64,000 bases of DNA from Bradyrhizobium elkanii WSM2783 (GTDB taxonomy: Bacteria; Pseudomonadota; Alphaproteobacteria; Rhizobiales; Xanthobacteraceae). Under the pieces are notes generated by a model. It saw nothing but the letters and a program-made list of their open reading frames with translations. It was not told where the DNA came from and did no database searches. Below, piece by piece: positions 9,639 to 55,717 of this stretch; position 1 is the first letter of the stretch; each line of letters begins with the position of its first letter. The stretch spans positions 8,926 through 72,925 of the forward strand of contig NZ_AXAP01000024.1 in assembly GCF_000472865.1 (NCBI RefSeq), read 5' to 3'. The position numbers and the translations under genes were made by a program.

Positions 9639-11330
9639 TTAAGCCGCCCGTACCGATTCCAGGAACTTGCTGACCTCGACCTTGAGGCGGCTGCTGTCGC
9701 CGGACAACGCCTTTGCCGCCGACAGCACCTGCGAGGAGGCCGAACCGGTCTCGGTCGCGCCGCGCTGCACGTCGGTGATGTTGGCCGAGACCTGGTGGGT
9801 ACCCTGGGCAGCCTGTTGGACGTTGCGGGAGATTTCCTGCGTAGCCGCGCCCTGCTCCTCCACCGCCGCGGCGATGGTCGAGGAGATCTCCGACAGCCGT
9901 TCGATGGTGTTGCTGATTTCCTTGATCGCGTTCACCGAGTCCTGGGTGGCGGCCTGGATGCCGGTGATCTGCTGGCCGATCTCGCCGGTGGCTTTCGCGG
10001 TCTGCTCGGCCAGCGCCTTCACTTCGGAGGCGACCACCGCAAAGCCGCGGCCGGCCTCGCCGGCGCGTGCCGCCTCGATGGTCGCGTTCAGCGCCAGCAG
10101 GTTGGTCTGGCCCGCGATCGTGTTGATGAGCTCGACGACGTCGCCGATCCGTGCCGCCGCCTTCGAGAGCTCGCTGACACGGTCGTTGGTGCTGCGGGCC
10201 TGGCCGACGGCGTCGCCCGCCATCCGTGCTGATTCCTGGACCTGGCGGCTGATCTCGGTGACGGAGGATGACAGCTCCTCGGTCGCGGACGCCACCGACT
10301 GCACGTTGGTGGACGCCTCTTCCGAGGCGGAGGCGACCGTGGTGGTCAATTCCTGCGAGCGTGTGGCAGTCGAGGAGAGCGTGCCGGCCGCGGCTTCGAG
10401 CTGGGTCGAGGCGGAAGAGACGGTCTGGACGATCTCGCCGATCATGGTCTCGAAATTGCGGGTGATGGCGTCGACCCGGCGGCCGCGCTCGATCTTTGCT
10501 TCGGCGTCGGCGGCTGCAGCCTCGTCGGCGGCCTTCTTGGCGATCAACGCTTCCTTGAACACCTGAAGCGCATCGGCCATCGTGCCGATTTCGGTCTTCT
10601 CGCCCTGGTGCGGGACTTCGGCGGTCAGATCCCCATTTCCGAGCGCCTGCATCGGCTTGACGATGGAGGCGATCCCGGCCGAGACGTCGCGGATCAACAG
10701 GAAACTGATGGCGGCGCCAACAAGCACCGCTGCCAAGAGAATGGCAGCGAGTATCGCGAAGGCGGAAGAGTAGTTGGCGGCGGCGTCCTCCGCAGCCTTG
10801 TCGGCACCCACCTTGTTGAGCTCGATGTCCTTGAGGAGAATCGCGTCGGCGTCGAGCCCGATCTTGTTCACGGTCTTGCTGTTCAGCTCATGCGCGTCAT
10901 GCGGGATCTTGCCGACATCCCTGCGCGACAACGCCATCACCTCTTCGGTGCCCTTCCTGTATCGATCCCAGGTGTCCGACCATTGAGCATAGAGCGCCCG
11001 CTCCTCCCGGGAGGTGATCATCGTTTCATAGCTCTTGCGGGCCTTCATGTTGCCCTCGACAACGGTGACCAGAGTCTTCTCCGCGGCCAGCTTCTCCTCG
11101 AGCGTTTCCGAGAGCATGTGCTCACGGATCACGTTGCGGTAGGTAATGACACCAGCGCGAAGCTCACCGAGCACCCGGACGCTCGGCAGCCAGCTCGTCG
11201 TGATGTCGACCGTATTGGCATTGATCGCCTGCATGTTGCGGACGGCGAGGAGCCCCATGCCCGTCATCGCGAGGAGCAGCAGCGCAACCACGGTGATGAT
11301 CTTGGCGCGGATCGAGTATTTGGCGAACAT
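9639..11330 (-). CDS. Methyl-accepting chemotaxis protein
   Basis: Membrane chemoreceptor, 563 residues. It has a first membrane helix (about residues 11-30), a periplasmic four-helix-bundle type sensor (about 31-190), a second helix (about 190-212), a HAMP linker, and a cytoplasmic signalling domain. The signalling hairpin carries the highly conserved tip ([20 protein letters not shown], about residues 415-435), which contacts CheA/CheW. Ser/Thr/Ala/Glu-rich heptads flank it and hold the likely methylation sites. The ATG at 11330 puts the positively charged segment just before helix 1; an upstream in-frame ATG at 11378 would add a Pro-rich tail. No che genes are near, so it is an orphan receptor with unknown ligand. 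Confidence 0.92.
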
Positions 11331-11507
11331 CTCAGAATCTCTTGGTGTTGCGCGTGTCGGGCACGTCGGGTGATGCAAGGTGCTTTGGTTTAGAAGGATG
11401 CCTTACTGGCAATCAAATCGCGCAACTTCTGAGGTCGCGTTAATTTGTCCCTCCGTAGAGTTACGGTAAATGAAAACCGTCACTAACAAATGAACGAAGC
11501 GATGAGA

Positions 11508-22116: not shown

Positions 22117-22195
22117 CGTCATTCCGGGGCGCCCGCAGGGCGAACTTGGAATCTCGAGATTCCGAGTCTGGTCCTTCGGACCATCCCGGAATGAC
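22117..22195. repeat. Palindromic repeat family F, copy 1
   Basis: Starts 'cgtcattccgggg', ends 'cccggaatgac', with inner 'ggaatctcgagattcc'. Its last bases create an ATG (22191) in frame with the next gene, but that ATG belongs to the repeat. Confidence 0.8.
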
Positions 22196-40909: not shown

Positions 40910-41680
40910 CTACCGGTCCGGATCCGGATAAACCATGGCGCGCCAGCCGCCACGATCGAACGGCGCCCACTCCCCTTCGCGCTGCGCCAGCCGGTCGGCG
41001 ACCGCGTAGACGGCGGCGGGATGGTGGCCCATGCCGCAATGGCTGCTTTCGACCTCGATGCTTTCCGACATCGCCGAGGCCTGCTCGCGGCAGCCTTGCC
41101 AGGCGCAGATGCCATCGGTGCGGCTGAAGATCGCCGTGGTCGGCACCGGAGGCGCGCTGGCCAGCGATCCACCGAAGCGCGGGTCCTCTTCCTCGGCGCG
41201 GCGGCCGCTCGCGATCTCATAGACCTGCCAGGCGTTGGTCGATTTTGGCCCGGCCGCAAAGGGGCTACCGAGCGTGATCACCTGGCGCACGCGCTCAGGC
41301 ATCATCTTGGCGAGTTGGCGAGCATAGAGGCCGCCGAGGCTCCAGCCGACGAGCGAGACCTTGCGGCCATGGCTGTCGTTCATGTCCTGCACGAGATCGA
41401 CCATCGCCTGCTGCACGCCCGCGCGCAGGCCGAGATTGCGGCCCTGGCGCCAGCCGCTGACCGCGTAGCCCTTGCTGCTCAGGAACTCGCGCAGCGGCCG
41501 CGTCGAGAGATCCGATGCGACGAGGCCGGGCAGCACCAGCACCGGATGACCATCGCCGCGCGGCGCGAGGCTCAACAGCGGCAAAGCGCCGAGGAAGGCG
41601 CCGAGTTCGTGGATGGCGCGCCCCTCCAACAGCATCAACGTCCTGGACGGCGGGCGAAGCGTCTCTGCGGCAAGGGGCAC
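40910..41680 (-). CDS. Alpha/beta hydrolase, lipase/esterase-like
   Basis: Serine hydrolase of 256 residues with nucleophile Ser114 in GWSLGG and an early 'GDGHPVLVLPGL' motif. It is clearly paralogous to the hydrolase at 53270-54070: both share the 'GHPVL-LPG' start, 'SDLS...R.YL...GY', 'GRKVS-GWSLGG-YAR' and a C-terminal 'ANRLAQ/DRLAQ...F-R' segment. No signal peptide is obvious. The substrate is unknown; lipid or PHA-related esters would fit the neighbourhood. Confidence 0.8.
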   Translation of the reverse strand: MPLAAETLRPPSRTLMLLEGRAIHELGAFLGALPLLSLAPRGDGHPVLVLPGLVASDLSTRPLREFLSSKGYAVSGWRQGRNLGLRAGVQQAMVDLVQDMNDSHGRKVSLVGWSLGGLYARQLAKMMPERVRQVITLGSPFAAGPKSTNAWQVYEIASGRRAEEEDPRFGGSLASAPPVPTTAIFSRTDGICAWQGCREQASAMSESIEVESSHCGMGHHPAAVYAVADRLAQREGEWAPFDRGGWRAMVYPDPDR

Positions 41681-43315: not shown

Positions 43316-43792
43316 TCAGGCCGTCTTGTTGTAGACCTTGGCGAAATTGTCCTGCGCGGACTTCGCACCTTCGGTGACGAGCTTGCCGACATATTCAGTC
43401 GCAGACTTGGCCCGCGAGACGAACACTTCGCCGCGCGCACGCACCAGGTCCGACTGGATCTGCACCGCGTCGTTCAGCGACTTGGCGGAAGCCAGCTTGT
43501 CGATACCGTTGAAGAACGCTTCCGCGTCCTGATAGATCGCCTCCTGGATATTGCGGCTGATCTTGGCGGCCTCGGAAACCGAACCGGCAACGGCGGATTC
43601 GATCACGGCGGTCACCTTTTCCGAGCCGGCGTGCAAGTCTGCGGCACGAACCTTGGCGGTCTCGGCCTGCTTCTTCACGAACTCACGGGCGGCTTCCGGC
43701 ACTTCCAGGTTCTGCAGCTTGGTAAAAGCTTCGGTCACAGGCGCAAAGGCCTGCTTGACGCTATCAAAAACGGAATTGGTCTCGGTGGTCAT
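43316..43792 (-). CDS. Phasin family protein
   Basis: Small (158 residues), mostly helical, Ala/Glu/Lys-rich protein that coats polyhydroxyalkanoate granules. The phasin pattern is seen in 'FTKLQNLEVPEAAREFVKKQ' region (about residues 23-42) and the heptad-rich middle. It has no membrane segment. A GGAGAG ribosome site is present. It has its own promoter region with a large palindrome and its own terminator, so it is likely a single-gene unit. It lies close to phaE-phaC. Confidence 0.9.
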   Translation of the reverse strand: MTTETNSVFDSVKQAFAPVTEAFTKLQNLEVPEAAREFVKKQAETAKVRAADLHAGSEKVTAVIESAVAGSVSEAAKISRNIQEAIYQDAEAFFNGIDKLASAKSLNDAVQIQSDLVRARGEVFVSRAKSATEYVGKLVTEGAKSAQDNFAKVYNKTA

Positions 43793-43877
43793 AGGGTCTC
43801 TCCATCCTCGGTTAGAGCTATGGGCTCACCCCGTCCAAATCTGGCCCAGGGCGTCATCCTTATGCCATGGTTAATGG

Positions 43878-43905
43878 TGCATCGCAATATATATGTTGCG
43901 ATGCA
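43878..43905. promoter_or_regulatory. Large palindrome upstream of the phasin gene
   Basis: Perfect 10-bp inverted repeat tgcatcgcaa / ttgcgatgca around tatatatg, 85 bases before the phasin ATG. On the minus strand, TTGCGA in the second arm and CATAAG after 17 bases make a weak sigma-70-like promoter. TGC/GCA-rich palindromes resemble known PhaR operators, so this may be a PhaR site (inference). Confidence 0.6.
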
Positions 43906-43970
43906 GTATCACAAATCTGTGAACAGCCGCAATATCGGGCGAATTGCCCGTCAGGCAGGCTGCAGCCTGG

Positions 43971-44570
43971 TCAAACCTGAGGCTGGACCGCCCCCGGCAG
44001 GCCGTAGGCCTCCATCTGAGCCCGGACCTGCGCCACATTGTGCCCGAGCACCACGATGTCGGGGGTCGCGCCGGCGACATCCCGGACATGGTCGCGCAGC
44101 AGCGCCTCGGCCCGGAAGCCGAGGCCCTCGAAGAGGGCAATCGCGCTACGCTGGTCGACCGTCATCTGCACCGACAGCTTCTCGAGGCCAGCGCTGAGCG
44201 CAATGGCAAACGTCTCCTGCGCCAGCGCCCGCCCCACCCCCTGCCCGCGGACGTCCAAGGACACCACCATCCGGATCTCGCCGACATGGGGCGACCAGGA
44301 GTGACGGTCGCGCACCAGCGTGCCGCAACCGATCACGACGCCATCCCTCAGCGCCAGCAGGCTCATGATGTCGCCGCGGTCGATCTCGTTGAGCCACGCC
44401 GATAGCACCTTCGGCTCGCTGATGTTGCGCGGCAGGAACAGCAGATCATGCGTCGGCAGCTTTTGCGCGAAAGCTAGCACCGCGGCTTCGTCGGCGCGCG
44501 ACATCAGACGGAATTCGATCTCGCCGGCCTCGGTCTTGACGCGCCGTGGATAGGGACGTGTCTCACTCAT
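43971..44570 (-). CDS. GNAT-family N-acetyltransferase
   Basis: Acetyl-CoA-dependent acetyltransferase of 199 residues. The acetyl-CoA-binding motif is 'VRGQGVGRALAQETFAIA' (about residues 108-125), the GNAT motif A. The ATG overlaps the phaC stop codon (ATGA), so its translation is coupled to phaC. The substrate is unknown; an amine or protein target linked to PHA metabolism is possible but speculative. The C-terminal part (about 185-199) is low-complexity. Confidence 0.86.
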   Translation of the reverse strand: MSETRPYPRRVKTEAGEIEFRLMSRADEAAVLAFAQKLPTHDLLFLPRNISEPKVLSAWLNEIDRGDIMSLLALRDGVVIGCGTLVRDRHSWSPHVGEIRMVVSLDVRGQGVGRALAQETFAIALSAGLEKLSVQMTVDQRSAIALFEGLGFRAEALLRDHVRDVAGATPDIVVLGHNVAQVRAQMEAYGLPGAVQPQV

Positions 44571-45664
44571 GTCGATCGCTGCCCCAGCCAGGAATCCAGT
44601 TTCGGCCACAGCCGCTTGATCGCATTGGCGCCGGCTACCAGGCTGACATGGCCACCTTTGAGGACCACCTCCTCCTTGTCGGTCGAGCCGACTTTCGCGA
44701 TCAAGTGTCGCGCCGCCTCATAGGGCACGATGTGATCGTGCTCGGCGACAGCGTGCAGAATCGGCACCTTGACGTTCGCAAGCTTCGCCGGACGCCCGCC
44801 GACCGACATGGCGTCGTTATAGAGCTTGTTGTCCCACATCAGGTCCTTGGTGATGGTCCGGAAATAGTCGCCGGCGAGCGGCAGCGTGTCGGTCGCCCAG
44901 CGGTCGAACATCCGGTACGACTTCACGAACTCGTCGTTCCAGATGTTGTCCCAGAGCTGCACCTGGCTTGGCGCGCGCGAAGCCGGCCGCAGCATCTCGA
45001 ACGATGACAGGATCAGTTCGGGCGGCATGTTGCCGACGCTATCGATCAGGCGGTCGACGTCGAAATAGCGCCGGTCGGCGAAATTCGAGAACAGCGTCAT
45101 CTCGCGGAAGTCGATCGGCGTGGTGAAGCAGATCAAATTCTTCATCGGCCCGTCGTGGAAGATCGAGCCATAGAGCAGCGACAGCACGCCGCCGAAGCAA
45201 TAGCCGATGACGGAGACATCGGTCTCGCCGCAATCCTGCTGCACGCGGCGAACACAGTCCGGAATGAAGTCGAGGACGTAATCCTCCATCCTGAGGTTCT
45301 TCTCTTCCGGTTTCGGCGCGGTCCAGTCGAGCATGTAGACGTCGTAGCCGCGCCTGAGCAGGAATTCGATGAAACTCTGGCCGGGCACCATGTCGAGGAT
45401 ATAGCCGCGATTGGTGGTGGCCATCACGATCAGGACCGGCACGCGATAGATTTCATCCGCCAGCGGTCGATAGTGGTAGAGCTGCATGGTTCCACGGCTG
45501 GCCAGCACATCCTTTGGCGTGGAGCCGAGCGCGGGACCCGAGGTCGAGAGATATTCGACGCCCTTGATGCTGCGCTGGATCGCGCGCTGCACCTCGGATT
45601 GAATGCGCTCCGCGATCGACGCTGCGTCGATCCCCAAGGACGCGTTCATCGAGGGCGCGTTCAT
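44567..45664 (-). CDS. phaC: Class III poly(R)-hydroxyalkanoate synthase, PhaC subunit
   Basis: Catalytic PHA synthase subunit of 365 residues, the length of class III enzymes and shorter than class I/II. The modified lipase box GYCFGG carries catalytic Cys156. Other family regions are 'YMLDWTAPKPEE' (about 110-121), 'ICFTTPIDF' and the late His region 'KGGHVSLVAG'. It polymerises 3-hydroxyacyl-CoA. Its ATG at 45664 overlaps the phaE stop (ATGA), and its stop overlaps the GNAT start. Confidence 0.93.
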   Translation of the reverse strand: MNAPSMNASLGIDAASIAERIQSEVQRAIQRSIKGVEYLSTSGPALGSTPKDVLASRGTMQLYHYRPLADEIYRVPVLIVMATTNRGYILDMVPGQSFIEFLLRRGYDVYMLDWTAPKPEEKNLRMEDYVLDFIPDCVRRVQQDCGETDVSVIGYCFGGVLSLLYGSIFHDGPMKNLICFTTPIDFREMTLFSNFADRRYFDVDRLIDSVGNMPPELILSSFEMLRPASRAPSQVQLWDNIWNDEFVKSYRMFDRWATDTLPLAGDYFRTITKDLMWDNKLYNDAMSVGGRPAKLANVKVPILHAVAEHDHIVPYEAARHLIAKVGSTDKEEVVLKGGHVSLVAGANAIKRLWPKLDSWLGQRST

Positions 45665-46044
45665 TTTTGCGCTTTCTCCGCAGGCGGGCGTTTGGTGCGT
45701 GGCGGCCGCGGCTTGCCGGCTGTCGCACTTTCCACATTGCCCGCGCTGCGGTTCATCTCGCTCAGCAGTGCCTTGATCTCGTCGAGCTGGCTTTCGATCG
45801 ATTGCAGGCGCTCGGCCATGCCGACGAGCTGCGCCCGGCTCGGCAGGTTCATGCCCACCAGATACTTCTCCATGAGCTCCGCGAACTGCTTCTGCGCGCC
45901 GGCCGCGACGCCGCCGGCCTGGTTCATCATCCGGCTGAATTCCGGCGTTCCCATTGCCTTGTTGGCGAAGGAATTGAATCCCTTTTCCAGCTCGCCGATC
46001 ATCGTCTGCCAGACGACAGCAGGATCGTTGCCCTTGTCGGCCAT
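45661..46044 (-). CDS. phaE: Short PhaE-like PHA synthase subunit
   Basis: A 127-residue, Met/Gln/Leu-rich helical protein with a coiled-coil-like stretch ('MAERLQSIESQLDEIKALLSEM' region, about residues 76-97) and a Pro/Lys-rich tail. Position directly upstream of and translationally coupled to a class III phaC, plus the C-terminal helix, supports a PhaE role. Typical PhaE is much longer (about 300 residues or more), so this is a reduced form or a different PhaC partner. The name is therefore tentative. Confidence 0.65.
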   Translation of the reverse strand: MADKGNDPAVVWQTMIGELEKGFNSFANKAMGTPEFSRMMNQAGGVAAGAQKQFAELMEKYLVGMNLPSRAQLVGMAERLQSIESQLDEIKALLSEMNRSAGNVESATAGKPRPPRTKRPPAEKAQK

Positions 46045-46220: not shown

Positions 46221-47141
46221 GTGACCACCCTCGTCCACCGGCCGCCGCAGATGATCCGCGCCAACGGCATCGACATCTGCTACGAGATCTTCGGCGACGA
46301 GAGCGCCGAACCGATGCTGCTGATCATGGGACTCGGCGCCCAGATGATCCATTGGGACGACAAGTTCTGCGAACAGCTCGCCGCGCGCGGCTTTCGCGTG
46401 ATCCGCTTCGACAACCGGGACATCGGCCAGTCCGGCAAGCTCACAGGCGGCAAGCGGCTGACGGCGTTCGAAATGCTGAGACTGCGTCTGTTCGGGATCC
46501 CCGTCGCCGCACCCTACAGACTGATCGATATGGCCAAGGACACGGTCGGCCTGATGGACGGGCTCGGGCTGAAGTCTGCGCATCTGGTCGGCGCCTCCAT
46601 GGGCGGCATGATCGCGCAGGAAGTCGCGATCTCGTTTCCGCAAGTCGTGCGCTCGCTCACCTCGATCATGTCGACGACAGGCAATCCGAAGATCCCGCCG
46701 CCGACCCGCGAGGCCGGGGCCATACTTATGGCGCCGCCGCCAAGGACGAAGGACGAATATATCGAGCGCTTCGCCAAGACCTGGAAGGTCCTGCGCGTCG
46801 GTTCCTTCCCGGAGGATGAGGCGCTCGATCGTTCGCGGGCGCTGCGCACCTATGAACGCGGCCTCAATCCCGCCGGCGTCGGCCGCCAGCTCCGCGCCAT
46901 CCTCGCCTCCGGCAGCCGCAAGCAACGCCTCGGCGCGGTGAAAGCGCCGACACTCGTCATCCACGGCACCGTCGATCCGCTGGTGCACCCGGCCGGCGGC
47001 AAGGACACCGCGGCCTCGATCCCGGGCGCAAAACTCCTGATGATCGAGGGCATGGGCCACGCATTGCCGATCCCGATGTGGCCAGAGATCATCGACGCCA
47101 TCGCTGAGCACGCGCATGGAGCTGTGGGAAGGGCGGCGTGA
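46221..47141 (+). CDS. Alpha/beta hydrolase
   Basis: Serine hydrolase of 306 residues with nucleophile Ser126 in GASMGG, an early 'LLIMGLGAQMIHWDD' segment and a late acid/His region ('HGTVDPLVHPAGG', 'GMGHALP'). The start is GTG at 46221 with AGGAGG 4 bases upstream (46211-46216). It diverges from phaE-phaC-GNAT across about 175 bases. Resembles esterase/hydroxyalkanoate-depolymerase-like enzymes but has no lid or binding domain that would prove it. Confidence 0.82.
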   Translation: MTTLVHRPPQMIRANGIDICYEIFGDESAEPMLLIMGLGAQMIHWDDKFCEQLAARGFRVIRFDNRDIGQSGKLTGGKRLTAFEMLRLRLFGIPVAAPYRLIDMAKDTVGLMDGLGLKSAHLVGASMGGMIAQEVAISFPQVVRSLTSIMSTTGNPKIPPPTREAGAILMAPPPRTKDEYIERFAKTWKVLRVGSFPEDEALDRSRALRTYERGLNPAGVGRQLRAILASGSRKQRLGAVKAPTLVIHGTVDPLVHPAGGKDTAASIPGAKLLMIEGMGHALPIPMWPEIIDAIAEHAHGAVGRAA

Positions 47142-47148
47142 CGGAATC

Positions 47149-47233
47149 GTAGGATGGGTGGAGCGCAGCGAAACCCATCATTGCCACCAAGCGCATAGAC
47201 GCGATGGGTTTCGCTTCGCTCTACCCATCCTAC
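47149..47233. repeat. Palindromic repeat family E, copy 2
   Basis: Arms 'gtaggatgggtggagcgca' and 'gctctacccatcctac', inner 'gcgaaacccatc' / 'gatgggtttcgc'. Between the convergent hydrolase and P450 genes; related to the copy at 4783. Confidence 0.85.
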
Positions 47234-47242
47234 AATTTGTGG

Positions 47243-50200
47243 CTATCCGCCCGCCCAGACGTCGAGCACATACCTGTTCTTCGCGCCGAGGTCCTCGATC
47301 CAGCGCGTCGCTGCGCCGGCATCGTCCCCATTGTGCTCGCGACGGATCGACATCAGGGTCGCCTTGACATCCGGCTCCATCTTGCTGCCGTCGCCGCAGA
47401 CATAGATGATCGCGCCCTTCCCGATCAGGTCCCAGACGCGGTTCTTCTGGGCGGCAATCAGGTCCTGCACGTAGGTCTTCGAGCCATTGAGCCGCGAGAA
47501 CGCGATGTGCAGCTCGGTGACGCCATCGGCGGCGAACGCCTTCAACTCGTCGGCATAGATTAAATCCTGATCCGGATGGCGGCAGCCGAAGAACAGCATT
47601 GCCGGCCCCAGATTGGCGCCCTGCGACTTGCGATGCGCTCGCTCCTGGAGGAAGCCGCGGAACGGCGCCAGGCCCGTGCCGGGGCCGATCATGATCAGCG
47701 GCACCGACGCATCGTCGGGCAGGCGGAAGCCGGCCTTGGTCTCGCGCACGGTGGCATGGACGGTGTCGCCGACGCGGCGGCCGGAAAGATAGTTTGAGCA
47801 GATGCCCTTATAGATGCCGCGGCCCGAATTCGCCGGCGCCTCCACGACGCCGACGGTGACGCTGCAGCGCGCGGGATCGCCCGAGGGCGAGGACGAGATC
47901 GAATAATAGCGCGGCGCCAGCAGCGACAGCATTTCCAGATAGATGTGGAACGGCAATTCGCAGGCCGGATGCTCCTCCAGGAGATCAAACACCGATTTGC
48001 GCTTGTCCATCACCTCGCTGCGATAACGTTCACCGGACGCATCGTCGTCGCCGACGTAGGCGAGCAGCTTCGGCTTCGTCATCGGGCAGCGCGTATGCTC
48101 GGCCATCACCTGGATCTGCTTGCGGGTTGCGACCTGCTGCAGCTCCACGAACTCGGTGAGCAACCGCCCGATAGAGATCGCATCGCCTACCGGCAGCTGC
48201 GCGCGACGGCCTTCCGTCACCTGCAGCCTGATCTGGTCCGCCGGCAGGAAGCCGAAGCGGCGCGCGACCTGGTCCACCAGCGTCGGATCGTTGCGCGGCA
48301 CCACGCTCAAATGATCGCCGACGCGGTAGGTGATGCCGGGCGGTAGTTGCACCTCGATGTGCCGTGTCGAACGCTCGGACGGATTGGCGCCGGACTTGTT
48401 CTGCAGTTCCGCATTCTCCAGCACCTTCATCGCAACCGCGCCGCCCTGCGCGACGATGGCATTGACCGAGGCCGGCGCTACCGGCTCGACCGCATAGAGC
48501 GGCTCGTCCTCTGGCGTGCGGGTGAAGTTCCAGTCGATCCCGAATTCCTTGGTCGCGACCTGCGCGGCGGCCGGAAACCATTTCTGGAACTGGCCGTCGA
48601 GATCGGCCCTAGCATCGCCCTCGCCGCGCGGATAGACGGCGCGGGCGCCGCGGGCGGCGAGCTGCTCGTCGATGAAGCGCGGCACCGACTGGTACGTCGC
48701 CGCCCAATCGCTGTTGCCGCAGCCGAACACTGCGTAGCGCACGCCGGCAAACGCGTCCTTCGGCAGATCGCTGCCGAGCCATTTGACGAACTCCGTCGCG
48801 TTGTCGGGCGGCGCGCCATTGTAGGAGGCGCAGATGATCAGGACGCCGCCTTCACTCGGCAATTTCCCGACATAGTCGTCGAGCGGACCGAGCCTGGTGT
48901 TGAAGCCATTGACCTCCGCAAGATCGGCCATCCGCGTCGCCAGTTCCTCGGTCGAGCCAAGATTGGAGCCGTAGAGCACCAGCATCGGCATGTTGTGTCC
49001 CAGGCGCGGTTTCGGCCGAGGCGCCCTCGGCGCGGCCGACGCCGCCGCGGCCGCGCCAGCGAAGACGCCGCGCTCCCTGTCCTCGCGCGGGCGCACCTTG
49101 ATCTTGAAGTCTTCGGGCTTGATCGTCAGCGTTTCCTTCAGGTGCATCTGGTAGCGATGCACGTCGATCAGTTTGAAGCGCTGCAGGATCATGCCGAGCG
49201 CGAGCGCCGCTTCATGCATCGCAAAGCCGCGGCCGATGCAGGCGCGCTGGCCGTTGCCGAACGGCTTCCAGGCATTGATCGGCCGCTTGGCCTCAGCCTC
49301 GCGGCTGAAATTCTCAGGGTCGAAGACATCAGGATTCGGACCCCAGACGCTGGGGTCGCGATGCAGCGCCATCACCAGGACAGTGATGAACGTGTTCTTC
49401 TTGAGCTTGTACTTGCCGCCGATGGTCTCGTCCTGCAGCGGTGCGATGCCATAGGCCGGCGCCGGCGGCCACAGCCGCAGCGCCTCCTTCAGGACTTGCG
49501 TGATGTAGGTGAGCTGGGTGACCTGCTGATAGGTCGGCTTGGCGTCGATATCGGGGCCGAGCACGCGGTCGACCTCCTCATACGCCTTCTTCAGCACCTC
49601 GGGATGTTTCAACAGCGCATAGATCGTGCTCGACAACAGGCCGCTCGTGGTCTCATGCCCCGCGATCAGGAATGTGTTGATCTGGTAGCGGATGTTGACG
49701 TCGTCGAGCTGCTCGCCGGTGACGCGGTCGATGCCGGTCATCATCGCGGCCAGCATGTCCTTCTGGCCCTCGCCGACATCGGACTGGCTCCGCCTGCGCT
49801 CGGCGATGATCTCGTCGACCATCTTGTTCATGAACGAGACGTCCTCAGTGAGCGTCTTGCGTCGCTGGCGCATCCACAGGCGCTCCAGCGGCAGGCCGCG
49901 GGTCATCATGATGGTCTCGAGGGAGCGCACCAGCGACTCCACGAAGGGGTGATAATCGCGGCGATAGAACGAATTGAAGCGATAATCGAAGCCGCAGAGC
50001 CCGATCGTGTCGAGCGTCAGCGCCGTCATGTCGTGGACGACATCGATCTCCTCGTCGGCATTGAGCCGCTCCCATTTCTTCACGAGCTGCTCGGCGATAT
50101 CGACCATGCTGGGATGGTAGGACTGCATGGCGCGGTTGCCGAATGGCTGCAGCAGGATGTTGTGCGCCTTGCTCCAGTTCGGCTCCTTGGTGTCGGCGGT

Positions 50201-50476
50201 GAACAGGCCGTCGCCGCCGACCGCGCGCACACGCCGCAGCGAGCCGCGCACCGCTTTGTCAAAGCGCTTTTCATCCGAGAGCTCGTCGACAAGGTCATGG
50301 CCGGAGACGATCACGAGCGGGGCGCCCATCATGTCGAGCCAGTAGATCGGCCCGAGCTCTTTGGCGAGCCGCACCAGATGCTGCACCGGAGCGGTCGAAT
50401 CCAGCGACAGCATGTTGCCGACCACGGGCATGGTCGGCGGATGCGGGATCGGAGCCAGTCGGTTGCCGGATGGCAT
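47243..50476 (-). CDS. Self-sufficient cytochrome P450 / NADPH-P450 reductase fusion (CYP102 type)
   Basis: Fused fatty-acid hydroxylase of 1077 residues. The N-terminal P450 part has the I-helix AGHETT (272-277) and heme ligand Cys413 in FGNGQRACIGRG. After an Ala-rich linker (about 470-490), the FMN domain begins with 'LYGSNLGSTEE'. The FAD domain shows 'YYSISSSPSGDP' and the NADPH part 'IGPGTGLAPFRGFLQER' and 'FGCRHPDQD'; the end, 'VWAGG', fits the family. The domain order equals P450 BM3. It follows an epoxide hydrolase gene, separated by a family F repeat, and is likely part of a lipid-modifying unit. Confidence 0.95.
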   Translation of the reverse strand: MPSGNRLAPIPHPPTMPVVGNMLSLDSTAPVQHLVRLAKELGPIYWLDMMGAPLVIVSGHDLVDELSDEKRFDKAVRGSLRRVRAVGGDGLFTADTKEPNWSKAHNILLQPFGNRAMQSYHPSMVDIAEQLVKKWERLNADEEIDVVHDMTALTLDTIGLCGFDYRFNSFYRRDYHPFVESLVRSLETIMMTRGLPLERLWMRQRRKTLTEDVSFMNKMVDEIIAERRRSQSDVGEGQKDMLAAMMTGIDRVTGEQLDDVNIRYQINTFLIAGHETTSGLLSSTIYALLKHPEVLKKAYEEVDRVLGPDIDAKPTYQQVTQLTYITQVLKEALRLWPPAPAYGIAPLQDETIGGKYKLKKNTFITVLVMALHRDPSVWGPNPDVFDPENFSREAEAKRPINAWKPFGNGQRACIGRGFAMHEAALALGMILQRFKLIDVHRYQMHLKETLTIKPEDFKIKVRPREDRERGVFAGAAAAASAAPRAPRPKPRLGHNMPMLVLYGSNLGSTEELATRMADLAEVNGFNTRLGPLDDYVGKLPSEGGVLIICASYNGAPPDNATEFVKWLGSDLPKDAFAGVRYAVFGCGNSDWAATYQSVPRFIDEQLAARGARAVYPRGEGDARADLDGQFQKWFPAAAQVATKEFGIDWNFTRTPEDEPLYAVEPVAPASVNAIVAQGGAVAMKVLENAELQNKSGANPSERSTRHIEVQLPPGITYRVGDHLSVVPRNDPTLVDQVARRFGFLPADQIRLQVTEGRRAQLPVGDAISIGRLLTEFVELQQVATRKQIQVMAEHTRCPMTKPKLLAYVGDDDASGERYRSEVMDKRKSVFDLLEEHPACELPFHIYLEMLSLLAPRYYSISSSPSGDPARCSVTVGVVEAPANSGRGIYKGICSNYLSGRRVGDTVHATVRETKAGFRLPDDASVPLIMIGPGTGLAPFRGFLQERAHRKSQGANLGPAMLFFGCRHPDQDLIYADELKAFAADGVTELHIAFSRLNGSKTYVQDLIAAQKNRVWDLIGKGAIIYVCGDGSKMEPDVKATLMSIRREHNGDDAGAATRWIEDLGAKNRYVLDVWAGG

Positions 50477-50512
50477 ATGGGAATGTCTCCTGATCTCGCC
50501 TTTAGCTCACCC

Positions 50513-50619
50513 CGTCATTCCGGGGCGCGCGGAGCGCGAGCCCGGAATCCATCGCGCCGCATGCGCAGGCGGAGAAATGGATTCCGGGCTCGATGCTGGC
50601 GCATCGCCCCGGAATGACG
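50513..50619. repeat. Palindromic repeat family F, copy 2
   Basis: Starts 'cgtcattccgggg', ends 'ccccggaatgacg', inner 'ggaatccatcg' ... 'atggattccgg'. Occupies most of the epoxide-hydrolase to P450 spacer. Confidence 0.85.
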
Positions 50620-50643
50620 ATCGGAGTTGCTTGATGCGCGCGT

Positions 50644-51636
50644 TCACCCAAACCGCCTTCTACGCCATTCGATCAGCTTGGCACTGACTTCTTCCGGCTT
50701 CTCCTGCTGTGTCCAATGGCCGCTGTCTTTGACCAGGTATTTCTCGAGATCCGGGATGAGCTTGTCCATGCCATCGGCCGACGACGGCGGCAGCACCGCG
50801 TCGTTCTCGGCCATGATCATCAGCGACGGCACGCGCACAATGTGATCGAGCCCTTCGGAGCGCTGCCAATTGCGCGACATGTTGCGGTACCAGTTGATGC
50901 CGCCGGTGAAGCCGGTCTTGGTGAAGGCATCGACGAACACCTGCTTTTCTTCCGGCGACAGGATCGGCGTGCGCGGATCGTGCTGGGCATCGTAATTCGC
51001 GATCATCTGCGGGAAAGCCAGGTTGAGCCGCGGCGAGGCGCCGACGCCGGCCACCACCTCCTCCGCCGGAGCGTCGGGCCGCCGTGCCGGCTTGCGCATG
51101 AAGGCATCAAAGGTCTGCTCGACCCGGCTGCCAAATATCTTGTCCGGCTCGTGCGCGGGGTCCTGGAACTGGATGATATACATGTGCTCGCCGAAGCGCT
51201 TGCGCAAAAGTTCGATCGGATCGGCCCAGGCGCGGTTGGTGTGCGGGGTATTGATGCCGACCACACCGGCGACGCGGCCCGGATGCCGAAGCGGCATCTG
51301 CCAGACCACGAAGCCGCCCCAGTCATGGCCGACGAAGACGGCCTTTTCGATCTGGAGATGATCGAGCAGGCCGACGAGATCGGCGGTCAGTTGCTCGATA
51401 TCATAGGCCTCAACCGGCTCCGGCCGGTCGGTCACGCCATAGCCGCGCTGGTCCGGCGCGATCACGCGGATACCGGCTTCGCTCAGCGCCTTGATCTGGT
51501 GGCGCCAGGAAAAGGCGAGCTCCGGCCAACCGTGGCAGAGCACCATCGCCGGCCGGTCGGACCTGGGTCCGGCTTCATAGAAGCCCATGCGGATGCCGTT
51601 GGTCTGGGCGAATTGCAGCGGGGGCATTTCCATCAT
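50644..51636 (-). CDS. Epoxide hydrolase (alpha/beta hydrolase fold)
   Basis: Soluble epoxide-hydrolase-type enzyme of 330 residues. The oxyanion HGWPE motif (35-39) and the nucleophile Asp105 in GHDWGG are the family pattern; the late 'HWTQQEKPEEV' supplies the catalytic His. It hydrates epoxides to diols. Its ATG comes 11 bases after the WS/DGAT stop codon. Together with the P450, it could open epoxides made from unsaturated fatty acids, which is inference. Confidence 0.9.
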   Translation of the reverse strand: MMEMPPLQFAQTNGIRMGFYEAGPRSDRPAMVLCHGWPELAFSWRHQIKALSEAGIRVIAPDQRGYGVTDRPEPVEAYDIEQLTADLVGLLDHLQIEKAVFVGHDWGGFVVWQMPLRHPGRVAGVVGINTPHTNRAWADPIELLRKRFGEHMYIIQFQDPAHEPDKIFGSRVEQTFDAFMRKPARRPDAPAEEVVAGVGASPRLNLAFPQMIANYDAQHDPRTPILSPEEKQVFVDAFTKTGFTGGINWYRNMSRNWQRSEGLDHIVRVPSLMIMAENDAVLPPSSADGMDKLIPDLEKYLVKDSGHWTQQEKPEEVSAKLIEWRRRRFG

Positions 51637-51647
51637 CGAGACGATCC

Positions 51648-53195
51648 TTATTCAGCGGCGCTTTTGGTCTCGGCTGGCGGCGGCACGAACGCCGCCTCCA
51701 GCGCCTCGAATTCGGCCGGCAGCATGTCGCACAAAATCTGCACATGCGGAATGATGTTCGCGCCGGCGACGAAACCGAAATCGAGCTGGTCGCGATAACT
51801 CTGCACGGTGATGTTGAGCGCAAGGCCGTGGGTCGCGATCGACACCGGGAAGATGTGCAGCAGCTCCGCGCCCGCCGCGTAGAGCGTCTGCCTCGGCCCC
51901 GGCACATTCGAGACGGTGATGTTGGCTGCCGGCGGCAGCACATTCGACAGGTCCGAGCGGCTGTAGAGCAGCGCCAGGATCTGCACCAGGATCGGCGCGC
52001 CCAGCATCGAGACATTGGAGACCTGCGGCATGAACGCCCGCAGCGGATGCGACATCTCCTTCGCCTTGGTGGATTGCGCGATGATCGCTTCCAGCCGCGC
52101 CCTGGGATCCTCGACGTTGGTCGCGATCGAGCAGATCATGCCGAACACTTGGTTGTTCGATTCGGTATTGCCCTCCTCGCGCAGCGAGATCGGTACCGCC
52201 GCGGTCAGCGATTTGTTCGGCAGCGCGCCCTGGCTGATCAAATGGCGGCGCACCACGCCGGAGGCGAGCGCCAGCACGACGTCATTGAGCTTGCCGCCGG
52301 CCGCCTTTGCCACCGCCTTGGCGCGAGACAGCGAAACCGAAGTGCCGGCAAAGCTGCGCTCCGAGGAGATCGCCTTGTTCAGGATGGTCGGCGGCGACAC
52401 CATGCTGGCGAGGCTTTCGCGCGATTTTGGATCGGAGACCTTGGTCACGACTTCCGACACGCTTTTCAGCATCGCCGGCACGGCGCTTGCGAACTTGATT
52501 GCGTTCTCGATCTGGAACATGGCGTTGTCGAACAGGATCGAGCCGAGATCGCTCTTGCCCGAGCGCGGCAGCTCGATCGTCCTTGGCGCCGCCGCGGCAT
52601 CGAACGGCTGGGTCCAGAGCAGCTGATAGGAATCGATCAGGTTGGCCGCAATGTCGCGTGGTTCCTGCGCGACCTTCCGCGCGATCGGCGGGTCGACCTT
52701 CCGCGGGATCGGCGAGATGTCGTAGATCATGCTGGTGAGCGCAGCGCCCGCGCCGCCGTCGATGCAAGCATGGTGCATCTTGGAGTAGAGGCCGATCTCG
52801 TTGTTCTGCATGCCCTCGAAGACATAGAACTCCCACAACGGCCGGGCGCGATTGAGCAGCTTGGCATGGATCCAGCCGACGAGGCGCTCCAGCGTGGCGC
52901 GGTCATGCGGCGCCGGCAGGCTGCCGCGGAAGATGTGGCGGTCGATGTCGAACTGGTCGTCCTCCACCCAGGAAGGGTGGTCGATGTCGAGCGGTGCCTT
53001 CTCCAGGCGCGATTTCAGGATCGGCGCGATGTGCAGTCGCGAGGCGATCATCGCCTTGAAGTCTTCGAAGAAGTCGCCCTTGTAGTCGTCGGGCAGGCGG
53101 AAGATCGCCATGCTCCCGACATGCATCGGCATTTCCGGCGTTTCCAGATAGAGAAACGACGCGTCCAGCGACGACAGTTTCTTGGCGTCGGCCAT
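51648..53195 (-). CDS. Wax ester synthase / diacylglycerol acyltransferase (WS/DGAT)
   Basis: Acyl-CoA-dependent acyltransferase of 515 residues forming wax esters or triacylglycerol. The catalytic HHxxxDG motif is HHACIDG (141-147). Other family regions are 'PLWEFYVFEG' (about 118-127) and 'LNDVVLALASGVVRRHL' (about 305-321), and 'SNVPGPRQTLY' (about 430-440). A GGGAGG ribosome site precedes the ATG. It lies in one-direction order with an alpha/beta hydrolase, an epoxide hydrolase and a P450. Confidence 0.94.
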   Translation of the reverse strand: MADAKKLSSLDASFLYLETPEMPMHVGSMAIFRLPDDYKGDFFEDFKAMIASRLHIAPILKSRLEKAPLDIDHPSWVEDDQFDIDRHIFRGSLPAPHDRATLERLVGWIHAKLLNRARPLWEFYVFEGMQNNEIGLYSKMHHACIDGGAGAALTSMIYDISPIPRKVDPPIARKVAQEPRDIAANLIDSYQLLWTQPFDAAAAPRTIELPRSGKSDLGSILFDNAMFQIENAIKFASAVPAMLKSVSEVVTKVSDPKSRESLASMVSPPTILNKAISSERSFAGTSVSLSRAKAVAKAAGGKLNDVVLALASGVVRRHLISQGALPNKSLTAAVPISLREEGNTESNNQVFGMICSIATNVEDPRARLEAIIAQSTKAKEMSHPLRAFMPQVSNVSMLGAPILVQILALLYSRSDLSNVLPPAANITVSNVPGPRQTLYAAGAELLHIFPVSIATHGLALNITVQSYRDQLDFGFVAGANIIPHVQILCDMLPAEFEALEAAFVPPPAETKSAAE

Positions 53196-53269
53196 GGCTC
53201 CCTCCCGGTGATTGTCGCGCGGCGCCTTGCTGGCGCTCTCATTCGGACGGCCGCTTGCTGCGGCGTCGA

Positions 53270-54070
53270 TCAGGATTGTGCCTGTTCCGGGGGTGGATAG
53301 GCAATGGCAAAGGGGCCGGACCGATCAAAATGACTGAACTCGCCCTCCGCCTGCGCCAGCCGATTGGCCACCGCCCAGAGCGCCGCGGGATTGACGCCGA
53401 GCCCGATATGGCTTGCGAGCAGCACCTCGATATTTTCGGCTGTTGCCGACGGACGCAGCACGCTGGTGCGCCAGTTCACGATGCCGTCGGCGCGCGAGTA
53501 GATCGAGGTGGTCGGCACCGGCATGTCGCCGGCGATCGCCTGCCGGACCTCGGGAGCGTCATCGACGCTCTCGCCTGTCAGCGCCTCGTAGAGCCGCGTC
53601 GCGTTGGTGGCGCGGATATCGCCGGCAAAGGGGGAGCCGAGCGTGATGACGGAGCGCACCATCTCCGGCGCGTTCAGCGCCAGATCGCGCGCATAGACGC
53701 CGCCAAGGCTCCAGCCGATAACGCTCACCTTGCGTCCGGTGGAGTCGCTGATCCGCCGCAACAGATCGCGCAGCGAGGCGCGCATCCGGCTGAGGCCGCG
53801 GACATTGCGACCAAAGCTCCAGGCATAGGTGTCATAGCCGAGCGCCTTCAGGTACCGCCGCATCGGCGCCATTGACAGGTCGCTTGCCAGGAATCCCGGC
53901 AGCGTCAGCACCGGATGGCCGTCCCCTCTCGGCGCACGCATCAAAAGCGGCAGCAGCAGGAGGCTCGAATTGAACTCGAACAGGCCCCTGCCCTCGGCCA
54001 GCATCAGACAGATGTTCGGTGGACGCAGCCGGCGTTCGCTCTCCTCACGGCTGCCATCCACGGCCGTCAT
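53270..54070 (-). CDS. Alpha/beta hydrolase, lipase/esterase-like
   Basis: Serine hydrolase of 266 residues with nucleophile Ser121 in GWSLGG and 'GDGHPVLTLPGF' near residue 50. It is paralogous to the protein at 40910-41680 along most of its length. It starts immediately after the DUF6489 stop codon and lies 74 bases before the WS/DGAT start, suggesting a lipid-ester substrate. No export signal is obvious. Confidence 0.82.
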   Translation of the reverse strand: MTAVDGSREESERRLRPPNICLMLAEGRGLFEFNSSLLLLPLLMRAPRGDGHPVLTLPGFLASDLSMAPMRRYLKALGYDTYAWSFGRNVRGLSRMRASLRDLLRRISDSTGRKVSVIGWSLGGVYARDLALNAPEMVRSVITLGSPFAGDIRATNATRLYEALTGESVDDAPEVRQAIAGDMPVPTTSIYSRADGIVNWRTSVLRPSATAENIEVLLASHIGLGVNPAALWAVANRLAQAEGEFSHFDRSGPFAIAYPPPEQAQS

Positions 54071-54319
54071 CTATTTCCTGTCCTTCTTCGAGGTGCTGCC
54101 GAGGCCCGCCATCGCCACGAACATGTCCTGGAAACGCTCGGCCAGCTTGGGATCGAGCCAGCTCTGCATCAAAGCTTCCGGCGATACCTTCTCGATGTTC
54201 GAGGTCATCTGCTGCTGCAGCTTTTCCATGACCGCCGTCTGCATCGGCGCGACATCCGGCAGGCCGAAGAACTGCCGGGCTTCGAGCGGCGTGCAATCTA
54301 TTTCGACATTGACCTTCAT
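54071..54319 (-). CDS. DUF6489 family small protein
   Basis: An 82-residue hydrophilic protein of unknown function. The opening 'MKVNVEIDCTPLEARQFFGL' matches the DUF6489 pattern; the middle is Gln/Met-rich and helical, with a charged C-terminus (SKKDRK). GAGGAG lies 6 bases before the ATG. It is directly abutted by the downstream hydrolase start, so the two are co-translated. The Met/Gln-rich helical character resembles that of small granule- or phasin-associated proteins (resemblance only). Confidence 0.75.
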   Translation of the reverse strand: MKVNVEIDCTPLEARQFFGLPDVAPMQTAVMEKLQQQMTSNIEKVSPEALMQSWLDPKLAERFQDMFVAMAGLGSTSKKDRK

Positions 54320-54463
54320 GACCGCTCCTCAATGCAGTTGACGCAAGAACATGACCCGGAATCGATTCTTCGAAAGGATCATGCCGTGGTGCAGTATCGC
54401 CGCGAGAGGGCTGGTCACGCAAGCGGGACGATGACGGCAGGCGGCAGGCGTCGCCTGCCAGGG

Positions 54464-55717
54464 TCAACCAAAGCGCTCGACCGCAAACGGCTTCGCATCC
54501 GCAAACGGCGTCTCGCCGGTCATCATCTCCGCAAGCAGCCGGCCGCTCACGGGCCCTAGCGTCAATCCGTGGTGCTGATGGCCGAAATCGAACCAGAGCC
54601 CGGGGTGGCGCGGCGCCTTGCCGATCACCGGCAGCATGTCCGGCAGGCAAGGCCGCGCGCCCTTCCAGGGCTTTGCCTCGACGGGATCGCCGAGCGGAAA
54701 CAGGTTGCGCGCCCGCGGTACCGCCCGCTCGACCTGCACCGGGGACGCCGGTGCGTCGCGATGGGCGAACTCGACACCGGTGGTGAGCCGGATGCCGCGG
54801 TTCATCGGCGCCAGACAATAGCCGAGATCGGAATCGAGCACGGGATGATTGAGCACGGCGTTATCGCCCGGCTTCAGGTGCAAATGATAACCGCGCTTGA
54901 CCTGAAGCGGGATCGCATAGCCGAGCGGGCCGAATACCTGGTCGGACCACGGGCCCATCGCGACCACCACCTCGCGGGCGGTCACACTGCCCTCGCTGAT
55001 GGCCACCCGCCATCGTCCGCCGGACTGTTCGAGCGTGCGGGCGTCGCCGACAAAGAAGCGGCCGCCCCTGCGGCCGAACAACGCGGCATAGGCCTTTGCC
55101 AGCCCGCCGGGATCGACGATCGAGCCCGGCGCCGGCGAATATATCGCGCCGGCGAAGTCACCCGACAGGTTCGGCTCACGCGCGGCGATGCCCTTGGCAT
55201 CGAGGACTTCGTTGGTGACGCCATATTGCTTCGCACGCTCGGTATCGCGCACGGCCTTGGCGAAGGTCGCTTCGCTGCGATAGAGTTTGATCCAGCCGGT
55301 CTTGCGCAGCAATTCCGGAACGCCGGCTTCTGCAATCAACGCCTCGTGCTCGATCAGGCTCTGTCGGATCAACGGCATCTCGGCGAGCGCGCTGTGCAAT
55401 GCACCCTCAGCCGAGGAGGCGAAGTAATAGCGCGCGAGCCATGGCAGGAAGATCGGCAGGTCGGCGAAGCGGTAGCGCACCTGCGGCGCGCGGTTCAGCG
55501 CATAGCGGAGCAGTTCGCCGAAATCCCGCGGGAACATGTAGGGAAAAACCGAGGCGCATTCGATGATGCCGGCATTGCCGTAACTCGTCTCCTCGCCGGC
55601 AACATCATGCCGGTCGACGAGGACGACATCGCGGCCTCGTTTTTGCAGATGCAAGGCGGCTCCAACACCGACCATGCCAGCCCCCAGGACAACGACGTCG
55701 GCCCTCAGTTCCGCCAT
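54464..55717 (-). CDS. FAD-dependent D-amino-acid dehydrogenase-like oxidoreductase
   Basis: DadA/glycine-oxidase-family flavoenzyme of 417 residues. The FAD-binding GAGMVGVG is at residues 12-19, and the C-terminal FAD/substrate region is 'GHQHHGLTLGPVSGRLLAEM' (about residues 381-400). These enzymes oxidise D-amino acids to imino acids and pass electrons to the respiratory chain. It diverges from the peptide transporter genes across about 190 bases. A 7-bp hairpin (54443-54459) lies 4 bases after its stop codon, without a T-run. Confidence 0.85.
   Translation of the reverse strand: MAELRADVVVLGAGMVGVGAALHLQKRGRDVVLVDRHDVAGEETSYGNAGIIECASVFPYMFPRDFGELLRYALNRAPQVRYRFADLPIFLPWLARYYFASSAEGALHSALAEMPLIRQSLIEHEALIAEAGVPELLRKTGWIKLYRSEATFAKAVRDTERAKQYGVTNEVLDAKGIAAREPNLSGDFAGAIYSPAPGSIVDPGGLAKAYAALFGRRGGRFFVGDARTLEQSGGRWRVAISEGSVTAREVVVAMGPWSDQVFGPLGYAIPLQVKRGYHLHLKPGDNAVLNHPVLDSDLGYCLAPMNRGIRLTTGVEFAHRDAPASPVQVERAVPRARNLFPLGDPVEAKPWKGARPCLPDMLPVIGKAPRHPGLWFDFGHQHHGLTLGPVSGRLLAEMMTGETPFADAKPFAVERFG

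Follow-up and report, generated by a model that had tools for sequence, protein, structure and literature searches.

Five genes run in one direction at positions 47243-54319 of a 64,000-nucleotide stretch of DNA from Bradyrhizobium elkanii WSM2783 (contig NZ_AXAP01000024.1), and the question they raise is whether they form a functional set or are chance neighbours. The whole stretch is referred to as the window. A check of its open reading frames and translations confirmed five complete minus-strand genes, and their coordinates bore out the arrangement described by a sequence-only reading, namely an abutting pair followed by gaps of 74 and 11 bases. The genes encode a DUF6489 protein (54071-54319, 82 amino acids (aa)), a lipase-like alpha/beta hydrolase, hydA (53270-54070, 266 aa), a wax ester synthase/diacylglycerol acyltransferase (WS/DGAT; 51648-53195, 515 aa), a soluble epoxide hydrolase of the alpha/beta fold (EH; 50644-51636, 330 aa) and a CYP102-type self-sufficient P450 made of heme and FMN/FAD/NADPH reductase parts (47243-50476, 1077 aa). 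The intergenic gaps are, in this order, 0, 74, 11 and 167 bases.

The gene set is real, widely conserved and functionally plausible. Its core comprises three genes, WS/DGAT, EH and P450; the hydrolase is an optional partner, and DUF6489 lies outside the set. Catalytic residues, gene order, strand and short gaps are kept across the family, WS/DGAT is always accompanied by the P450 where both were sought, and it is this co-retention that distinguishes the core. There is about an even chance that the three-gene module, usually led by the hydrolase, would convert part of the long-chain fatty acids to an oxygenated, esterified neutral lipid; its chemistry, with substrate and product, is a reasoned guess from the enzyme families.

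Judged by its sequence, each enzyme belongs to a known kind. Pfam and NCBIfam were concordant for DUF6489 (PF20099, 54.4 bits against a Pfam cut-off of 23.6), for WS/DGAT (TIGR02946, 412.3 bits against an NCBIfam cut-off of 309.95) and for the P450, in which Pfam placed p450, Flavodoxin_1, FAD_binding_1 and NAD_binding_1 within a single 1077-aa chain, the domain plan of CYP102. The hydrolase was placed weakly, by Lipase_2 at 21.2 bits just above the cut-off of 20.3, with four other Pfam matches below theirs. Family and structure matches agreed with the names first given to the WS/DGAT, the epoxide hydrolase, the BM3-type P450 and DUF6489, and, with this weak placement, also with that of the hydrolase.

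Residues were checked on aligned copies, duplicates included (115 for WS/DGAT, 119 for EH, 84 for hydA, 122 for P450 and 77 for the nearby polyhydroxyalkanoate (PHA) synthase PhaC). The HHxxxDG, ND and PLW residues of WS/DGAT were found in 115/115 copies, and its solved relatives are two WS/DGATs (7nxg and 6chj). A GxSxG motif is present in hydA, with Ser121, Asp195 and His221, a triad assigned by motif, in 84/84 copies. EH carries the Asp-His-Asp residues, the two cap tyrosines and the HGxP motif by which its class is recognised; Asp105, Tyr153, Tyr250 and Asp279 were kept in 119/119 copies and His307 in 118/119, one copy being truncated. Its best solved relative is EphA (E 1.7e-72), and the mammalian-type epoxide hydrolase 1cqz scored E 5.5e-63. 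Among the NCBIfam matches listed for EH (25 of 29), none was above cut-off and none was an epoxide hydrolase model, the top one being a haloalkane dehalogenase subfamily (98.5 of 265 bits). For the P450, the heme Cys413, the ExxR motif and Thr276 were conserved in 122/122 copies, and the closest solved structures are full-length bifunctional P450/reductases, with a top score of 1021 bits. Enzymes are named CYP102 when they share more than 40% identity with CYP102A1 (P450 BM3); against a heme-domain fragment of BM3, 86 of 149 residues were identical (58%), in a comparison limited to that 149-residue stretch.

Synteny was examined in 117 congeneric genomes, with thresholds of E 1e-150 for WS/DGAT, E 1e-100 for EH, E 1e-60 for hydrolases of the hydA/hydB type and E 1e-10 for DUF6489. 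The P450 was found in 112 genomes, WS/DGAT in 111 (partial in G038 and G050), EH in 114 (partial in G076), a hydA/hydB-type hydrolase in 114 and DUF6489 in all 117. On coordinates read by eye, not by script, the five genes lay on a single contig in 106 of the 117. Among the eleven exceptions, genes are absent in five (G030, G040, G047, G064 and G097), contigs break in four (G089, G050, G099 and G074), hydA is missing in G082, and it is truncated in G009. P450 and WS/DGAT were co-present or co-absent in 116/117 genomes, and all 111 with WS/DGAT also carry the P450; the sole mismatch, G089 (87% complete, about 1020 contigs), has its P450 at a contig start. The conserved synteny that had been named as the test of the proposal was thus found, with P450, WS/DGAT and EH nearly always together, and these counts place the arrangement beyond chance neighbours. 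Two smaller observations concern the P450 matches themselves: those in G072, G090 and G100 are split into two pieces, by a frameshift or an assembly error, and G053 has a second, partial CYP102-like match (C1:5556984-5559359, 47% identity).

The five genomes lacking both P450 and WS/DGAT have kept different remainders: EH and DUF6489 in G064 and G097, EH, hydA and DUF6489 in G030, hydA and DUF6489 in G040, and DUF6489 in G047. In a tree of eight concatenated, partly missing proteins from 96 loci, computed with FastTree and IQ-TREE, a single clade for these five genomes was rejected (approximately unbiased (AU) test, p 0.0007). FastTree set them at four places, and IQ-TREE shifted G040 and G047. 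If the ancestor had both genes, as their occurrence in other genera suggests, this result implies that they were lost together at least twice.

Beyond the genus, a family draw of 198 genomes from 47 genera, including 11 Bradyrhizobium, was searched; its counts are uncorrected for relatedness. WS/DGAT (E 1e-80) was found in 39 genomes of 9 genera and the P450 (E 1e-120) in 51 genomes of 16 genera, some of the latter only 38-59% alike. When the P450 was counted at 75% identity or more, both genes occurred in 38 genomes, the P450 alone in 4 (G206, G220, G252 and G255) and neither in 155, G145 (a WS/DGAT fragment only) being left out and the P450 of G284 being counted as a fragment. WS/DGAT without the P450 was seen in no genome in which both were sought, neither in the family draw (0/38) nor in the genus (0/111).

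Seven genera other than Bradyrhizobium (g6, g17, g20, g25, g26, g40 and g43) kept the order WS/DGAT-EH-P450; g28 lacks WS/DGAT. The gap between WS/DGAT and EH had a median of 18 bases (12-203, n=105) and that between EH and P450 a median of 147 (31-2002, quartiles 133-170, n=110), always on the same strand and with duplicates included. A second, named collection was obtained by scanning with the G208 WS/DGAT, so that WS/DGAT is present by construction. The best 80 of its 223 relatives were mostly from Bradyrhizobium, with Tardiphaga, Afipia, a Rhodopseudomonas metagenome-assembled genome and others, and at least 14 of these 80 loci coincide with loci of the other set. It identified g26 as Tardiphaga (L092, L096) and g25 as Afipia (L100, L114, L126). 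EH adjoins WS/DGAT in 80/80 of these best-scoring loci, and the P450 comes next in 75, in one of them with a gene for FadD, a long-chain-fatty-acid--CoA ligase, between. In the five loci lacking the P450 (L069, L078, L108, L123 and L141), the stretch stops no more than 1.7 kb from WS/DGAT.

Adjacency by itself turned out to be a poor witness. Of 27 non-Bradyrhizobium genomes with WS/DGAT, 24 were fetched (not G201, G235 or G270), and 23 of these (not G284, whose locus is on two contigs) were combined with 4 loci lacking WS/DGAT into a set of 27 loci. Where both partners were present, EH and P450 were adjacent in 26/26 loci, FadD being ignored (1 further locus has the P450 alone), and WS/DGAT and EH in 22/22 (4 further loci have EH alone: three without WS/DGAT, plus L014, with WS/DGAT on a separate contig, L042). 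The corresponding values were 11/11 for hydA and WS/DGAT, with 13 further loci holding only one of them, and 6/6 for DUF6489 and hydA, with 19 further loci holding one only, perhaps partly owing to stretch ends. Each of the 12 pairs of neighbours, which ran from SBP-DAO to phasin-DUF445, behaved in this way, the P450 and the convergent alpha/beta hydrolase (abh) coming closest to an exception with 23/24. Adjacency alone therefore proves little, and as proof of a unit it was rejected.

The same twelve pairs are what would be expected if the genes had independent functions and merely shared an inherited chromosomal neighbourhood whose order is seldom broken in the family. We consider this unlikely, because the joint absences and an inversion of the core as a block carry the case for a unit where adjacency does not discriminate. 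In five of the six Tardiphaga loci (L012, L016, L020, L043 and L045; the sole exception is L044), the whole block WS/DGAT-EH-P450 is turned round with respect to the phasin and DUF6489 flanks and sits on the opposite side of the convergent hydrolase, whose own orientation to those flanks is unchanged. P450 and WS/DGAT are moreover jointly absent from genomes that form no clade, three of which have kept the EH that lies between them, and other families, as well as another order, also group P450 and hydrolase with a WS/DGAT whose likeness is only about 38-46%.

These rearrangements also separate the core from its companions. DUF6489 lies beyond the rearrangement, apart from the core, in 5/6 Tardiphaga loci, is not in view in any of seven Afipia loci (L011, L015, L018 and L025-L028), which keep hydA-WS/DGAT-EH-P450, and is present in 117/117 genomes, including those without P450 and WS/DGAT; its membership was rejected. 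Four g40 loci (L013, L017, L021 and L022) have DUF6489-WS/DGAT-EH-P450 without hydA. The set of five first proposed is accordingly reduced: WS/DGAT, EH and P450 stand as its core, the hydrolase is a frequent and dispensable partner, and DUF6489 is a separable neighbour.

Further groupings bear on the substrate. A FadD gene lies between EH and P450 in g17 (L010, which is named locus L109, and L014) and g43 (L019), with 894.9 bits in L010 and 873.1 in L019 for NF005463 (cut-off 869). Its place within the run in two genera points to fatty acids. The P450 of g66, a genus of another family (L049, L050 and L054), is 61-63% alike and has DUF445, a hydB-type hydrolase and a WS/DGAT of about 38-46% likeness in its vicinity; FadD comes next in L049 and L050, cut by the stretch end. 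The grouping is looser in L051/L052, and L053 has the P450 only. G949, from another order, has the same grouping at the same degrees of likeness, with FadD matches as two pieces only, and within the family G142 and G145 hold similar sets with a distant WS/DGAT. No EH relative was found in the g66 loci or the G949 stretch at the thresholds used, and no WS/DGAT was in view beside the related P450s of L055-L057. WS/DGAT (E 1e-80) occurred in 11/297 genomes of the order, 10 of them in this family, and in 3/385 of the class, two of them Bradyrhizobium. The grouping of P450, hydrolase and WS/DGAT, with or without FadD, seems older than the family, and EH seems to be a later addition, made within the family to which Bradyrhizobium, Tardiphaga and Afipia belong. 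L144 has only the start and end pieces of FadD beside WS/DGAT (11110-11381), as though the middle had been lost.

In the proposed chemistry, the hydrolase would free fatty acids, which the P450 would hydroxylate or epoxidise at double bonds, and EH would convert epoxides, either the cell's own or plant-derived, to diols. FadD could then make acyl-CoA, from which WS/DGAT would esterify the hydroxyls to a wax-, estolide- or triacylglycerol (TAG)-like storage lipid. FadD in the run and near related P450-WS/DGAT loci fits this chemistry. After nitrogen fixation declines in the nodule, the substrate may be plant membrane lipids.

Expression data from the soybean symbiont B. diazoefficiens give this proposal a setting. 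The succession EH, P450, convergent hydrolase, PhaR-like subunit and PhaC fits blr2881, blr2882, bll2883, blr2884 and blr2885. Among the genes of the Figure 8 pattern, Table 4 of the published nodule study names blr2881 as 'Epoxide hydrolase', and the legend of Figure 8 places blr2882 under the post-symbiotic pattern, which is flat at 34-49 days and raised at 55-95 days in soybean nodules, with a 2.62-fold pattern average (PMC6321122). The expected co-expression thus found partial support: EH and, by gene order, the P450 are listed under one published pattern, in lists in which WS/DGAT is not printed. As a candidate operon, the five genes share a strand and have short gaps, with a published pattern for blr2881 and blr2882 only. 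It is possible, and is put forward tentatively, that Bradyrhizobium and its relatives have in the module a pathway devoted to oxygenated neutral lipids, used during nodule decay, in which CYP102 would supply hydroxy and epoxy acids, EH diols, and WS/DGAT esters resembling estolides or fatty acid esters of hydroxy fatty acids (FAHFA).

A number of observations weigh against the esterified-lipid proposal. As regards expression, blr2882 is taken for the P450 from gene order, and the 33 genes of Figure 8 do not include blr2881, which is named only in Table 4; the same table holds bll4403 and bll2675, named in the preceding legend, apparently for a similar reciprocal-symbiosis pattern, and the gene lists, which are examples, print nothing for the WS/DGAT gene (PMC6321122). 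In the region 47100-54500, 0 sigma-70-like promoters were found against 1.1 expected. No FadD was found in the L064 locus, whose WS/DGAT is close to that of the FadD-bearing G208, and hydA is missing from several lineages that retain the core. The uniform adjacency of all twelve pairs counts here as well. Finally, the sets are not always complete: EH is retained without P450 and WS/DGAT in G030, G064 and G097, P450 and EH are kept while WS/DGAT is missing from the locus in L029, L030 and L031, and in the L032 stretch the P450 is present without EH or WS/DGAT (locus only). Given EH without P450, and one P450 locus without EH, the genes need not form a strict three-step pathway.

The incomplete sets would suit a different role, uptake and detoxification only, in which P450 and EH disarm unsaturated fatty acids or epoxy-oxylipins of the host, for example in senescing nodules, while WS/DGAT separately stores TAG and no oxygenated ester is formed. 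EH alone in three genomes, P450 with EH but no WS/DGAT in three loci and the post-symbiotic pattern of EH and (by tag order) P450 in the lists of PMC6321122 are all consistent with it, and BM3 has been discussed as a guard against unsaturated fatty acids (PMC9281120). This role nevertheless appears rather doubtful, since WS/DGAT never occurs without the P450 in the 38 family and 111 genus genomes, which suggests that WS/DGAT uses the product of the P450.

The active site of the P450 also gives reason for caution. Arg47 and Tyr51 anchor the substrate carboxylate in BM3, although membership of CYP102 does not require them. BM3 Phe87 is kept, while Arg47 is replaced by Ala52 and Tyr51 by Ile56, so that a free fatty acid may not bind as it does in BM3; this too speaks against the proposed use of fatty acids. 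Neither Arg at 47 nor Tyr at 51 was found in any of 112 close P450 copies (0/112, including the window's own and duplicates). The substrate of the P450 might then be a terpenoid or a different acyl compound (N-acyl signals, for instance), with EH acting on the resulting epoxide. We regard this as very unlikely, given that FadD inside the run and WS/DGAT alongside argue for fatty acyl chains and that, in the alignment, the nearest solved bifunctional P450 likewise lacks both anchors.

The neighbouring genes raise one further explanation. Next to the P450 lies the convergent hydrolase (46230-47141, plus strand, start codon not fixed; Abhydrolase_1, 85.5 bits), a conserved neighbour judged to be outside the core because it keeps its flank orientation where the core is inverted. 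Beyond it is a conserved minus-strand PHA neighbourhood (43316-46044) with a PhaR-like subunit (45661-46044, minus strand; TIGR02132, a weak 24.5 of 148.4), a class III-like PhaC (44567-45748, minus strand, start not fixed; TIGR01836, 311 bits, below the cut-off of 365.3), a GNAT gene and a phasin (43316-43792, minus strand; TIGR01985, 113.4 over 99.7). The core could act as a supply line to this synthase, its oxidised fatty acids yielding hydroxyacyl-CoA for a mixed polymer. In several genera the PhaR-like, PhaC, GNAT and phasin genes remain close to the P450, the Cys-Asp-His residues of PhaC are intact in 77/77 aligned copies, and PhaC is missing from its place together with P450 and WS/DGAT in G064 and G097 (locus only). 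On the other side, P450s of the CYP102 kind attack the chain close to its far end and not at carbon 3, and 6/6 Tardiphaga loci retain the core but showed no PhaC within the 20 kb. The gene corresponding by order, blr2885, is described as a shorter polyhydroxybutyrate (PHB) synthase paralogue (PMC4029623) and is listed as poorly expressed or absent in microaerobic culture (PMC10888616). A supply line to PhaC is highly improbable.

Compared with known systems, the P450 shares with CYP102A1 of Bacillus megaterium the fused domain plan, Phe87, the heme Cys and the I-helix Thr; it differs in the Ala and Ile at the Arg47/Tyr51 sites and in having EH and WS/DGAT as neighbours. The WS/DGAT shares HHxxxDG and both domains with its family (7nxg, 6chj) and scores above the family cut-off, whereas its tie to P450 and EH sets it apart, neighbours having been compared within the loci fetched for this analysis. 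EH has the Asp nucleophile, two cap tyrosines and Asp-His pair in common with soluble epoxide hydrolases of the EphA and mammalian types. Its 330 aa are too few to include the N-terminal domain that the 554-aa mammalian-type enzyme has, and its genomic partners are unlike theirs. A similar set by description is mymA of M. tuberculosis, in which a monooxygenase, a lipase-like hydrolase, WS/DGAT-like genes and an acyl-CoA ligase stand in one run; its monooxygenase is of the flavin type, not a P450, and to our knowledge it has no EH. The proposed product type resembles FAHFA, which are described as having ATGL as a synthase and as conserved from yeast to mammals (PMC9242854); the enzymes differ, and the route here is a proposed one. 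A CYP102 of the genus, CYP102A6, is attributed to B. diazoefficiens (PMC9281120). Among the open-licence PMC papers listed, no description of the WS/DGAT-EH-P450 combination was found by title or abstract opening, which does not prove its absence in print. CYP102 enzymes have been much engineered while their natural role is still debated, and a set co-inherited across a genus offers a testable natural context. The set also bears on the possible esterification of oxidised fatty acids by bacteria, and is a lead on how symbionts use plant lipids once nitrogen fixation stops.

The 'repeat' noted after EH is a real, strongly folding palindrome in the EH-P450 gap (50477-50643; -94.6 kcal/mol, z -6.87, 0/200 shuffles as stable), although it is not part of the gene set. 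Its end motif, GTCATTCCGGGGCG, occurs at 50514 and 50606 in opposite orientations and has 180 copies in the genome (87 forward, 93 reverse; 0 for the backwards control), so the palindrome is a dispersed element lying there by happenstance. The element is also present at 22118-22130 of the window, and among the places listed the motif often forms opposed pairs roughly 70-130 bases apart. As a control element it was rejected, in view of these copies and of the minimum EH-P450 gap of 31 bases across loci. FixK2-type boxes numbered 3 in the window against 3.0 expected, with none in the locus, and Rfam gave no match in the window.

A shorter inverted repeat, AAACCCATC / GATGGGTTT, lies at 47172-47230, between the converging ends of the hydrolase and P450 genes. 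A second lipase-like hydrolase, hydB (40910-41680, minus strand), is related to hydA (about 50-52% in other genomes), and the two flank the region. Since it is the hydB type that accompanies the distant WS/DGAT in other families, hydA may have arisen by duplication and gone with the newer WS/DGAT.

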